From Ferrimonas marina (GTDB lineage Bacteria; Pseudomonadota; Gammaproteobacteria; Enterobacterales; Shewanellaceae), in assembly GCF_900129905.1 (NCBI RefSeq), contig NZ_FQXG01000006.1, forward strand, positions 82,580 through 146,579: a stretch of DNA of 64,000 nt, in the 5' to 3' direction. The notes under the pieces are model-generated. The model was not told the DNA's origin. It saw nothing but the letters and a program-made list of their open reading frames with translations, and searched no databases. The position numbers were made by a program, and so were the translations under genes. The stretch's first letter is position 1, and each line of letters opens with the position of its first letter. Positions 50,061 to 53,314 of the stretch are shown here, one piece after another.

Positions 50061-50710
50061 AGTTAAGCTGGCAGTGGGTGATTCTGGCAGGCGCTTTGGC
50101 GCTGGCTGCGGGTGTCGGTTTGTCTCTGAATGGACAAGCCGACGAGCGGCCATTGGTGTCGGCGCTGTGGTACGAGCAAGCGCGGCCACTGCCGGAGGTC
50201 GAGCTCAAAGATCATAGCGGCGGCGTCTTTACCAACAAGCAGTTCAAGGGTCGCTGGACCCTGATGTTTCTGGGTTACACCTCTTGCCCGGATGTGTGCC
50301 CCACTACCATGGCGGATCTGGCTCGGGCTTATCCCAAGTTGCAGGTGCACCTGACCAAGTCCCCGTTGCAGGTGGTGCTGATGAGCGTTGACCCTGGCAG
50401 GGACTCTCAGCAGAAACTGGCGGACTACGTTGGCTTCTTCAATCCCGAGTTTTATGCCATCACCGGTGAGCACAGCCAACTTTACAAGCTGAGCCAGTCG
50501 CTTGGCCTGATGTACGTGTTGGTGGACAACCCCAACCCGGATGGCACGGGGGAGGATTATCTGGTGGACCACTCTGCCGATATCGTGCTGATTAACCCTG
50601 AAGGGGCGGTAGAAGCGGTGTTCCGCCCCGAGGGGGGTGTTGGTGAGATCCGAAAGGTATCGATGAACCGGTTGATGGAGGATTACCCGGTAATCACGGG
50701 TGTGCAGTGA
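50057..50710 (+). CDS. SCO1/SenC-type copper chaperone
   Basis: This 217-residue periplasm-facing, membrane-anchored protein loads copper into CuA of subunit II. It has an N-terminal helix, the copper-binding [12 protein letters not shown] (CX3C) and the later conserved His in [11 protein letters not shown]. Its ATG overlaps the ctaB stop (ATGA). It ends the cox cluster. Confidence 0.93.
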
Positions 50711-50725
50711 CTCTAAGTTCGCAAT

Positions 50726-50851
50726 TTGGAACTGAAGGCGCTTGAGATATTATCTGGCGGTAATGTAAGAACTTATCCTGCTCAGGCCTTAAGAAAAAGC
50801 TATTACTTGATCGGAATATATCCGCTCTTACTAAAATTTATGCTTTGTTAA
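50726..50851 (+). other. Possible degenerate double-glycine peptide frame
   Basis: A 41-codon frame beginning at TTG reads MELKALEILSGG and then NVRTYPAQALRKSYYLIG and a hydrophobic end. The first 12 residues look like a bacteriocin leader ending in Gly-Gly. There is no good ribosome-binding site and no ATG, so it may be a decayed or chance frame. The remaining AT-rich gap up to 50986 holds the promoter of the next gene, but nothing else I can name. Confidence 0.2.
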
Positions 50852-50986
50852 CATGCTCTTATGTATCTGGATTACTTCTTATACACCAGATAGACCATGG
50901 CTTGGATGAGAATGCTCCGAGTTTTGCTCTAAGTTTAAATTGTCTTTTCGTTGAAAGACATAATTTATGGAGCAAAGGAGATACTC

Positions 50987-51172
50987 ATGGAAGAGATTAA
51001 TAGCAAATCGATTGAAAAGGTCACTGGTGGCTACTGGCACTTTATGGGGGGATGGGCAGCAGGTCATGCTCTTGATTATGCAATAGGGGCTTATGTGGAC
51101 TACTGGGACCGGGCTGTTGAGGAAGGGTGGGGTAAGAATCCTGGTGAGGCCCCACGGCATAGTAACTACTAA
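50987..51172 (+). CDS. Double-glycine-leader bacteriocin-like peptide precursor
   Basis: The 61-residue product starts MEEINSKSIEKVTGG, a classical class II bacteriocin leader with acidic and hydrophobic positions ending in Gly-Gly. The predicted mature part of 46 residues is rich in aromatic residues and glycine (YWHFMGGWAAGHALDYAIG, then AYVDYWDRAVEEGWGKN). An AAAGGAGA site lies 6 bp before ATG 50987. It sits in an AT-rich island with small membrane proteins that could confer immunity. No ABC transporter with a C39 peptidase is present in the window, so export would need a pump encoded elsewhere. Confidence 0.65.
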   Translation: MEEINSKSIEKVTGGYWHFMGGWAAGHALDYAIGAYVDYWDRAVEEGWGKNPGEAPRHSNY

Positions 51173-51185
51173 ATAGGTGAGTTAG

Positions 51186-51353
51186 ATGAATTTATCTGGT
51201 AATAAGGCCTTTTTTGCTGGTGTGGCACTTGCTTTCATTTTACCCAGGTTGTTACCAGAGGGGACTAGTCTCTTAGTAGAATTTTTTGTCCTGCTCGGTA
51301 TTGTTACTATATTAATTGGATACAAACGGTTAGTTGGTGACAAGAGCAAGTAG
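51186..51353 (+). CDS. Membrane microprotein A (candidate immunity protein)
   Basis: This 55-residue protein starts MNLSGNKAFFAGVALAFILP and continues with RLLPEGTSLLVEFFVLLGIV and TILIGYKRLVGDKSK. Two hydrophobic stretches are separated by RLLPEGTS, and the tail is basic. An AGGTGAG site lies 5 bp upstream, and the gene starts 13 bp after the bacteriocin-like gene. It is about 80% identical over 41 residues to the product of 51950-52099, but uses AT-rich codons. Confidence 0.7.
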   Translation: MNLSGNKAFFAGVALAFILPRLLPEGTSLLVEFFVLLGIVTILIGYKRLVGDKSK

Positions 51354-51401
51354 ATATTAAAACTTATTAGTCAAGATAAATTCATTGGTCATGCCTAGAG
51401 A

Positions 51402-51433
51402 AGCAAGGTTGATGTTATGATATCAACCTTGCT
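51402..51433 (+). terminator. Hairpin after microprotein A
   Basis: The 12-bp perfect repeat AGCAAGGTTGAT/ATCAACCTTGCT with an 8-nt loop lies 49 bp after the stop. There is no T run, so it could be an attenuator or an mRNA 3' end. Confidence 0.55.
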
Positions 51434-51549
51434 CCGTTCTCAGTGTTGTTGGCTGTGCCATTTTTGATGCAAACCTATAACTGTCTAAGCTGTTGGAGTC
51501 TGTTCGCATCGCTTTATAACTAAGAGATTTGTTTAGGCACATTCTAGCT

Positions 51550-51933
51550 ATGATACTCTCCGTTATCGTCTCATCCATTCTTGGCTCTATATGTGGCATT
51601 CTCTTGGGATTGTTTGTCTTGGAGCACTTCTTATATAAAACAGGTGACTTAGAGAGTTCATCAGTATTTTATATATCTATAATCATGGTACTTTCGTTAT
51701 CTTCTGTTTACTCATTGATAATGATTTTAAGAAAGAAATATATAGGGATAGTATCCTTTTTGGCCATGATGCCAGTTGTAACCTTTTTCTTGCTGCTTCA
51801 CCGTTATGCAACTATTAACATGTTAGGTTTTGCTGAAATATTTATTTTTGTGATGGTGACATCGATTTCTTTGGTGATTTTAAGACAAACACAAAAACTC
51901 AACCTAGAGGATCCTGAGTCATGGCCTTGGTAG
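51550..51933 (+). CDS. Small AT-rich polytopic membrane protein
   Basis: The product of 127 residues (134 if TTG 51529 is used) has four predicted helices: ILSVIVSSILGSICGILLGL, FYISIIMVLSLSSVYSLIMI, IGIVSFLAMMPVVTFFLLL and FAEIFIFVMVTSISLVIL. Codon use is AT-rich and unlike the flanking genes. I recognise no family. Between two copies of the microprotein it could be an immunity or accessory protein of the bacteriocin-like cassette. The start is uncertain. Confidence 0.55.
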   Translation: MILSVIVSSILGSICGILLGLFVLEHFLYKTGDLESSSVFYISIIMVLSLSSVYSLIMILRKKYIGIVSFLAMMPVVTFFLLLHRYATINMLGFAEIFIFVMVTSISLVILRQTQKLNLEDPESWPW

Positions 51934-51949
51934 GGAAGGGCTTCGCATC

Positions 51950-52099
51950 ATGAAACAGTTTTTGGCGGGGGTGCTGCTGGCCTTTGCGCTGCCAAGGTTG
52001 CTACCGGAGGGGACCAGTTTGCTGGTGGAGTTTTTGGTGTTACTGGTGATCGTCACTATCCTAATTGGCTTGCGTAAGCTGACAAACAAAGAGGGCTGA
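51950..52099 (+). CDS. Membrane microprotein B, GC-rich paralogue of microprotein A
   Basis: This 49-residue protein starts MKQFLAGVLLAFALP, continues RLLPEGTSLLVEFLVLLVIV, and ends TILIGLRKLTNKEG. It has a strong GGGAAGGG site 8-10 bp upstream and is followed at once by a terminator. Protein identity with microprotein A is high while the codons differ widely (for example CTG and GTG where A uses TTA and GTA). Both copies therefore appear to be under protein-level selection. Confidence 0.75.
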   Translation: MKQFLAGVLLAFALPRLLPEGTSLLVEFLVLLVIVTILIGLRKLTNKEG

Positions 52100-52121
52100 A
52101 CCTTTTGGTTCAGCCCTCTTT
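52091..52121. terminator. Bidirectional terminator between microprotein B and prpF
   Basis: GAGGGCTGAACC-TTTT-GGTTCAGCCCTC overlaps the microprotein stop codon. It has T-rich sequence on its right and A-rich sequence on its left, so it suits both convergent genes. Confidence 0.85.
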
Positions 52122-52135
52122 GTCTTCTGGGGAGG

Positions 52136-53314
52136 TTAAGCGACAGGTACGCGCACTTTCCCTTCCATCAATACTCGGGCACTGCGGCTCATGGTGACGG
52201 TTCGGGCCTGCCAGAGACCCTCCTCTTCAACCACTTCTGCGCCCACCTTTAGAGTGCCGGAAGGGTGGCCAAACCGGACGCCGTTGTCGGCACGGCCTTG
52301 CGTAGCGGCATTGACCAGGGTGCCAGGAATGGCGGCTGCAACCGCAATAGCGACGGCAGCGGTGCCCATCATGGCGTGGTGCAGTTTGCCCATCGACAGG
52401 GCACGCACGTTCAGATCAATCTGTTCACTGTCGATCACCTTGCCACTGGAGGCGGCGTAGCTTTTCGGCCCCGCGACGATGGCAATCTTCGGCGTATGAC
52501 CTCGATTGGCCGCTTCGCTCAGTTCATTGATTAAGCCCATTTTCAGAGCACCGTACGCACGCAGTTGTTCAAACCGCTCCAACGCCTTGGCATCGCCATT
52601 GATCGCTTCCTGCAGCTCAGTGCCGTCGTAACCCAAATCCTCTGCCCGGATAAACACCGTTGGGATCCCTGCATTGATCAGCGTGGCTTGTAATCGTCCG
52701 CCTGCCAGCAGATGCTCCGGCACCGTAAGGGTGTCGACGGTGTTACCGGTCGGGAATAGCGCACCATCGGCGGGATCGGCAAAGGTCACCGCTACCTCAG
52801 CAGCCGGAAAGGTGACCCCATCCAGCTCAAAGTCGCCGGCCTCCTGCACCTGACCATCAGTGATGGGCACCTGGGCGAGGATGGTCTTGCCGATGTTGGC
52901 TTGCCAGATCCGCACCGTACAGCTGCCATGATCCGGGATCCGGTCAGCGGCAACCAGCCCCTGTTCTATGGCAAAGGCACCCACTGCTGCGGTCAGGTTG
53001 CCGCAGTTGCCACTCCAGTCGATAAAGGGCTTATCGATGCTTACCTGGCCGAACAGGTAGTCGACATCGTGGCCGGGCTTGGTGCTCTTCGACAGGATCA
53101 CCGTCTTGCTGGTGCTGGAGGTGGCGCCCCCCATACCATCGGTGTGCTTGCCGTAAGGGTCCGGGCTGCCAATGACGCGCAGCAGGATGGCGTCTCGCTG
53201 AGAGCCTGGAGATTGGGCCTCGGAGGGCAGGTCGTCCAGCTTAAAGAACACCCCTTTGCTGGTGCCGCCGCGCATGTAGGTGGCGGGGATCTTGATTTGA
53301 GGTGGGTATTTCAT
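52136..53314 (-). CDS. prpF: 2-methylaconitate cis-trans isomerase PrpF
   Basis: This 392-residue enzyme isomerises 2-methylaconitate so that AcnD-dependent methylcitrate cycling can proceed. It has the PrpF opening IPATYMRGGTSKGVFF, the GGATSSTSKTVIL segment and GNCGNLTAAVGAFAI, with the family's active-site Cys/Lys context. ATG 53314 has an AGGGAGA site; the frame upstream of it runs through non-coding DNA. It is last in gntR-prpB-prpC-acnD-prpF. Confidence 0.95.
   Translation of the reverse strand: MKYPPQIKIPATYMRGGTSKGVFFKLDDLPSEAQSPGSQRDAILLRVIGSPDPYGKHTDGMGGATSSTSKTVILSKSTKPGHDVDYLFGQVSIDKPFIDWSGNCGNLTAAVGAFAIEQGLVAADRIPDHGSCTVRIWQANIGKTILAQVPITDGQVQEAGDFELDGVTFPAAEVAVTFADPADGALFPTGNTVDTLTVPEHLLAGGRLQATLINAGIPTVFIRAEDLGYDGTELQEAINGDAKALERFEQLRAYGALKMGLINELSEAANRGHTPKIAIVAGPKSYAASSGKVIDSEQIDLNVRALSMGKLHHAMMGTAAVAIAVAAAIPGTLVNAATQGRADNGVRFGHPSGTLKVGAEVVEEEGLWQARTVTMSRSARVLMEGKVRVPVA

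Follow-up and report, generated by a model that had tools for sequence, protein, structure and literature searches.

Class II microcins carry a leader of 15-18 aa that ends in GG or GA, the cores of the ten known members measure 60-90 aa, and their immunity proteins are typically adjacent, membrane-bound and 51-216 aa long (PMC10233263). Proximity to PCAT has been used as a criterion for microcins (PMC11494933), and putative members have been described across Enterobacterales and in a few outgroup species, together with a call for a wider search (PMC9746304). In Serratia marcescens SM39, two microcins are encoded away from the PCAT cluster, and a set of 40 Serratia microcins has been assayed with an E. 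coli system as the secretion route (PMC13101503): for this reason trans export is not itself new. A search of the open-licence literature, judged by titles and the first lines of abstracts, returned no paper on a Ferrimonas bacteriocin or on a double-glycine microcin of Shewanella or the Shewanellaceae. We have analysed a small gene cassette of Ferrimonas marina which, in our assessment, is likely to be a horizontally acquired, exporter-less system of the class II microcin-like kind; this bacteriocin reading rests mainly on comparison within the genus.

The cassette is contained in a window, i.e. the whole stretch of DNA analysed, of 64,000 nucleotides, to which all unprefixed coordinates refer. 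It is flanked on the left by CtaA, a UbiA-family protein and SCO1 (stop at 50710), and on the right by PrpF, which is convergent (stop at 52136-52138), and aconitase. Its four genes are all on the + strand with intact frames, and they are placed and ordered as in the first-pass annotation: a precursor peptide of 61 aa (50987-51172), whose ATG is preceded at a distance of six nt by the Shine-Dalgarno sequence AAAGGAG (50974-50980); microprotein A, of 55 aa with two predicted transmembrane helices (51186-51353), which starts 13 nt past the peptide stop codon; a four-helix membrane protein of 127 aa from its ATG (51550-51933), with a poor ribosome site and an alternative TTG at 51529, 21 nt upstream, that would give 134 aa; and microprotein B, of 49 aa (51950-52099). 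A perfect 12-bp inverted repeat without a T tract lies between A and the four-helix gene (51402-51433, + strand, folding z -6.15). The terminator that had been claimed at the end of the cassette is borne out as a terminator-like hairpin with a perfect 17-bp stem between B and prpF (52086-52123, + strand, folding z -8.74), the 5' arm of which covers the B stop codon and the T-rich part of which is mostly inside the stem, but not by the consensus terminator scan, whose list does not include it.

At the cassette the GC content of the window drops from about 0.60 to 0.36-0.43. By gene, GC3 is 0.36 for A, 0.39 for the four-helix gene, 0.475 for the peptide and 0.71 for B, with 0.73 for sco and 0.70 for prpF on the two sides. 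The AT-rich island of the first-pass annotation is therefore real, with low GC3 in A and in the four-helix gene, but smaller than annotated: because B has host-like codon usage, the foreign-looking DNA ends near 51930 and not at 52099, and occupies about 50711-51930. These values suggest that, of the two microproteins, B alone looks native. The island DNA has no match in phages or plasmids, and sco synteny in 13 congeners places neither an island nor a microprotein at that site.

Both microproteins had been noticed separately in the first pass, but not their relationship: A and B are paralogues by sequence, with 35 of 55 columns invariant in their alignment and a local identity of 76%. Synonymous differences between them have reached saturation (34.2 in 37.5 sites) at a pN of 0.23, which suggests that the copies are old and that both have been kept by selection. 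An AlphaFold prediction on A, from two rows, is a helical hairpin with a pLDDT of 77, which carries little information.

The precursor peptide consists of the leader MEEINSKSIEKVTGG (50987-51031) and the core YWHFMGGWAAGHALDYAIGAYVDYWDRAVEEGWGKNPGEAPRHSNY (51032-51169), behind a strong, near-perfect AAGGAG ribosome site. The core is 46 aa long, contains 15% Gly and no Cys, is acidic (net -3 by hand count), includes a GxxxG motif (GWAAG) and has the C-terminus APRHSNY; from the single sequence, AlphaFold predicts one long helix for the peptide (pLDDT 73, again of low information). The leader was scored, along with every ATG, GTG and TTG in the window, against a matrix of 17 double-glycine (GG) leaders from congeners, with the first residue of the G013o2 leader set to M and one GTG start read as V. 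The window peptide was left out of this matrix, an exclusion that is not fully independent because six orphan leaders entered it through a sequence profile, A3, that includes the window peptide; with that proviso, the double-glycine leader recognized in the first pass ranks first among 4518 starts at 27.5 bits, the next reaching 17.3, and the best start in Markov simulations of the AT-rich region (n = 400) reached 16.3. When all 15-mers were scored with no start required, it again ranked first, of 88,324, at 22.0 versus 18.2 for the next. A leader-like stretch without an ATG (VRNLELKALEILSGG, 50717-50851) is found right after sco, and its portion 50717-50761 ranks 9 of 88,324 15-mers; it may, weakly, be read as chance or as the relic of a second GG peptide.

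The first-pass impression that the mature peptide is unlike known ones agrees with the searches. There is no homologue in 59 relatives or in plasmids, no match in 84,980 genomes (GTDB contigs) or 2.9 million viral contigs by pattern scans, which find close relatives only, no family in Pfam, NCBIfam or PHROGs, and no bacteriocin model at E ≤ 1; a PDB sequence search returned two chance-level rows only. Within the genus, the core is matched best by the first of the exporter-linked peptides of congener G013, which shares GGWA-GH-L-Y (p = 0.003, or about 0.05 after correction, since it is one of 17 comparisons), and next best by the peptide of congener G009 (p = 0.016).

No exporter had been seen nearby. 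This is true within the window, but the genome holds two C39 ABC exporters with HlyD-like partners, and so the C39-peptidase ABC transporter whose absence from the genome was to count against a bacteriocin is present. Three C39-domain matches were found in all: two belong to C39-ABC transporters in which the Cys, His and Asp-Pro motifs are present, both adjoining an HlyD-like gene (a Pfam assignment on contig 16, an assignment by eye on contig 8), which gives the genome the C39-ABC with Cys, His and Asp and the membrane fusion protein looked for in a class II microcin system, and the third is without the Cys motif and adjoins a frame that we take to be RTX-like. Candidates for a TolC-type outer-membrane channel are 8 OEP-domain matches in 4 places. 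The nearest motif-bearing exporter is on the same contig as the peptide (contig 16), about 177 kb away, and the other is on contig 8; the close exporter-microcin linkage is thus a feature that this locus lacks.

The contig-16 exporter (locus L009, at 310-314 kb of the contig) is followed by a GG peptide of its own, MQQQQPELDTLSEEELLQIVGG..., which came to light through a sub-threshold TIGR01847 match (E 1.99) and ranks 1 of 27,319 15-mers in the 19-kb stretch: it is an acidic peptide of 52 aa with the core NGDGSDGGDGPTMPPIGTYNGIPPEVIIKE, directly downstream of the exporter on the - strand (L009:8166-8324, near 310.2 kb of contig 16). Around the contig-8 exporter (L008), the leader matrix recovered no GG peptide in 19 kb, the best score being 11.4 for a stretch without a start codon. 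A peptide-less exporter and an exporter-less peptide, both orphans, therefore share one genome. Further GG peptides of this genome may be missed, because profile A3 did not find the acidic L009 peptide at E ≤ 10.

The same facts could be taken as signs of decay, i.e. the cassette could be a silent remnant that lost its exporter and is kept only for its immunity genes, a reading that partly overlaps our own. In line with it, there is no exporter within the window while the genome keeps a peptide-less exporter pair, the stretch at 50717-50761 resembles a weak relic of a leader, the ribosome site of the four-helix gene is poor, and 6 promoter-like sites occur in the region where 3.0 (sd 1.5) are expected; of the six, a single one precedes the peptide on the same strand. 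We regard this explanation as improbable, given that the four frames are intact, that the Shine-Dalgarno sequence and leader of the peptide are near-perfect, and that the substitution pattern of A and B suggests maintenance by selection.

Turning to the genus, a C39 match is present in 11 of the 14 genomes, with the Cys motif in at least one match in 8 of these, and GG-leader peptides of the same form occur in AT-rich DNA in 8 of 13 congeners. We read 13-15 kb around each of eight congener C39-ABC exporters. Six of these loci (G013, G002 contig 8, G007, G008, G011 and G012) are AT-rich and have one to three GG peptides; that of G006 has two acidic ones (L044:8380-8713). The reading covered the first part of L042 and, in L043 and L044, included the stretches behind the peptides. 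On contig 58 of G002 (L042:4040-5328), an acidic peptide with a leader ending in AGG and a Cys-Cys core, SNGVFQCCNAQEEMKQY, lies near a C39 exporter, with a radical-SAM-like frame behind it; going by these labels, which were assigned by eye, it may be a modified peptide natural product.

Profile A3, built from 12 peptide rows with the window peptide among them, was searched against the 14 genus genomes and returned 28 rows. Seventeen matches at E ≤ 0.0024, in 9 of the 14 genomes (Ferrimonas marina included), were used, together with two weaker rows of G013 (E 0.023 and 0.084) that proved on reading to be GG leaders; the other nine (E 0.051-0.73), most of them inside long frames, were dropped without reading each. 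Five new matches lie away from C39 matches, three in G013 and one each in G009 and G010. In total 7 of 15 GG loci have no adjoining C39 match (the window, four in G013, and those of G009 and G010), and GG peptides away from an exporter occur in 4 of the 14 genomes, that of the window counted. As an example, G013 (L040, L074, L075, L076 and L086) has eight GG peptides, three of them beside the exporter and the other five spread over four AT-rich sites elsewhere. The link to an exporter is not absolute, because G009 and G010 have GG cassettes while all their C39 matches are without the Cys motif; at these loci (L059:1501-1677 in G009, L060:1501-1623 in G010) either an exporter was missed or another protease handles the orphan peptides.

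Matches to Bacteriocin_IIc that stay under its cut-off occur among several congener peptides (best E 2.9e-4), and one peptide resembles MccV (E 0.07); the A3 rows match models for class IIb bacteriocin (5 of 12), bacteriocin_sig (4 of 12) and the E492 microcin (1 of 12) weakly, with E 0.0015 at best. The window peptide matches none of these bacteriocin and microcin models.

Co-occurrence of peptide and membrane protein was examined across the genus. An ORF counted as a partner if it was 40-330 aa long and had one or more predicted membrane segments. Such an ORF starts no more than 100 nt downstream of the peptide in 12 of 15 loci, the window included, these being the GG loci judged genuine by eye and picked before the test but after reading; the corresponding figures are 83 of 900 simulated (9%) and 19 of 400 random (5%) positions. 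With a stricter partner (two segments and at least 50 aa) the counts are 7 of 15 versus 6 of 900 and 2 of 400, and within 700 nt the contrast is weaker (14 of 15 versus 362 of 900 and 102 of 400). The misses at 100 nt are the two acidic-peptide loci, L044 and L009, and L074 of G013, in which an ABC ATPase (PF00005) begins 43 nt after the peptide and is followed by a permease-like frame.

ABC pairs and CPBP proteins confer immunity to bacteriocins. Five orphan loci of congeners have partners of immunity type: proteins of 59 and 53 aa, a four-helix protein of 127 aa, the Rce1-like/CPBP protein of G010, which exceeds the Pfam cut-off, and the ABC ATPase with its permease-like frame; a hydrophobic ORF of 54 aa with a TTG start is present at a sixth, L086. 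A further partner, common to three peptide clusters linked to exporters (L041:8383-8733, L043:9319-9636 and L046:3903-4214), has paired CPxC motifs (zinc-ribbon-like) near its N-terminus and hydrophobic segments behind them, and would be an unusual candidate immunity protein.

Signalling peptides, too, make use of double-glycine leaders and C39 exporters. They do so in Gram-positive bacteria (PMC6363468), and one may ask whether the window peptide is an exported, pheromone-like signal, with the membrane proteins acting in sensing or uptake and not in immunity. The acidic GG peptides of L009 and of G006 (L044), which are of a GC-richer type without an adjacent membrane partner, are compatible with such a role, and these exporter-linked loci may do something else. 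For the window peptide we give a signal little credence: the four cassette proteins match no kinase or regulator family; 18 compared GG peptides have the leader in common but hardly any core sequence, many cores being hydrophobic or Gly-rich; and the partners (CPBP, ABC pair, small membrane proteins) are of the types that provide bacteriocin immunity.

A GG cassette in another member of the genus also offers a counterpart for the four-helix protein. An orphan GG peptide of G009 has a four-helix protein of 127 aa encoded 36 nt behind it, and this protein aligns to the one in the window with a local score of 75 and 26% identity; none of 300 shuffles reached 75 and neither did any of 63 hydrophobic 127-residue segments (best 59), this comparison being one of 30 protein pairs tested. 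BLASTP with composition adjustment gave no significant match, and G009 was not reported when the four-helix protein alone was searched against 152 family genomes: for these two reasons we grade the homology as probable and not higher. When alignment A4 of the four-helix protein was searched against 394 genomes of the order, the rows other than the window were weak, partial or stop-containing, with G009 not among them, and no homologue of the protein was found in plasmids. Other resemblances among the 30 pairs, of the four-helix protein to the 53-aa partner (7 of 300 shuffles) and to an 82-aa protein (3 of 300), and of B to the 53-aa partner (8 of 300), were not counted.

Microprotein A has the position, size and two-helix pattern of an adjacent small membrane immunity protein (51-216 aa), and is a candidate for that function. 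It shows no homology to the small partners of the congener peptides (best 33 of 300 shuffles, for the 59-aa protein). Neither A nor B has more than weak matches in Pfam, NCBIfam and PHROGs (four sub-threshold rows); the pair has no homologue in GTDB contigs, and A none in plasmids. The one convincing outside relative is in G003 (L006:1480-1641 on contig 1, 53 aa), a weaker row in G030 having an internal stop; it lies between ORFs that we take, from their translations, to be methyltransferase-like and rnhA-like, with no GG peptide in the 3.1-kb locus and no C39 match in the genome. That the microproteins are an unrelated small membrane family, or the hydrophobic toxin of a toxin-antitoxin pair, beside which the peptide lies by chance, would suit this GG-less relative and the weak match of A to DUF202 (E 0.044, below cut-off), and is the least probable of the explanations considered, with A only 13 nt past the peptide stop and the same layout in 12 of 15 genus loci.

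These comparisons support, at the level of predicted function, the original view that a peptide followed by membrane proteins is a bacteriocin with its immunity. In a microcin-like system the 61-aa precursor, if expressed, would be recognized through its double-glycine leader and cut after GG, and the peptide would probably be exported in trans through an OEP-family outer-membrane channel and one of the two C39 peptidase-ABC/HlyD pairs, more likely the one on contig 8, which has no peptide beside it. The released core, of 46 aa, Gly- and aromatic-rich and largely helical by prediction, might then act on the inner membrane of close relatives and kill them, while the producer would be protected by A, together with the four-helix protein and/or B. 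Against a microcin-like reading one has to weigh the short and acidic core, the peptide without a homologue, the few promoter-like sites, and the G003 relative, which belongs to no GG cassette and whose genome has no C39 match.

What makes the locus most interesting is that an AT-rich A gene and a host-like B gene come together in it. A tentative explanation, to which we assign a low but appreciable probability, is that B is a resident, host-adapted immunity gene, beside which the AT-rich cassette of peptide, A and four-helix gene would have arrived later; otherwise B is a candidate second immunity gene. If the explanation were true, an already-immune strain could accept a lethal cassette, and microcins would travel through the genus as small modules without exporters of their own, relying on a hub exporter and settling at sites where immunity is already in place. 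With the A/B pair, the origin of immunity genes can be put to the test. Microcin tools that search beside exporters would miss this cassette, and, if active, such peptides would be a source of narrow-spectrum antibacterials from outside the enteric species known for microcins.

How the cassette relates to described systems can be summarized as follows. Two-peptide bacteriocins were considered and rejected, there being only one intact GG peptide and an upstream stretch that is weak and relic-like, and so were the siderophore microcins of class IIb, as the C-terminus APRHSNY is not Ser/Gly-rich; to the Bacteriocin_IIc and NCBIfam bacteriocin models the window peptide has no match at E ≤ 1. The GG leader and the GxxxG in the core are nevertheless shared with the two-peptide (class IIb, Gram-positive) and Bacteriocin_IIc (PF10439) peptides, whose models some congener peptides match weakly and the window peptide does not. 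The SM020 and SM064 microcins of Serratia marcescens SM39 are likewise GG genes apart from an exporter cluster, a likeness of gene position, and SM39 differs in having further microcins beside its PCAT. Also among the closest systems are the class IIa microcins (microcin V type: CvaC/Cvi/CvaAB/TolC). Like them, the cassette has a 15-aa leader ending in GG, as in class II microcins in general, and an adjacent small membrane protein, here the candidate immunity protein A, with a C39-ABC and HlyD exporter in the genome and no modification gene recognized in the cassette; the 15% Gly of the core falls within the 12-26% given for known ones (PMC11494933). It differs from them in a core of 46 aa, outside the range of 60-90 aa, in exporters that are not adjacent, one lying about 177 kb away and the other on a different contig, and in its setting, a chromosomal AT-rich island with two extra membrane genes, one of them a paralogue of the candidate immunity gene. 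Overall the cassette probably adds one more example to a type of system already described.
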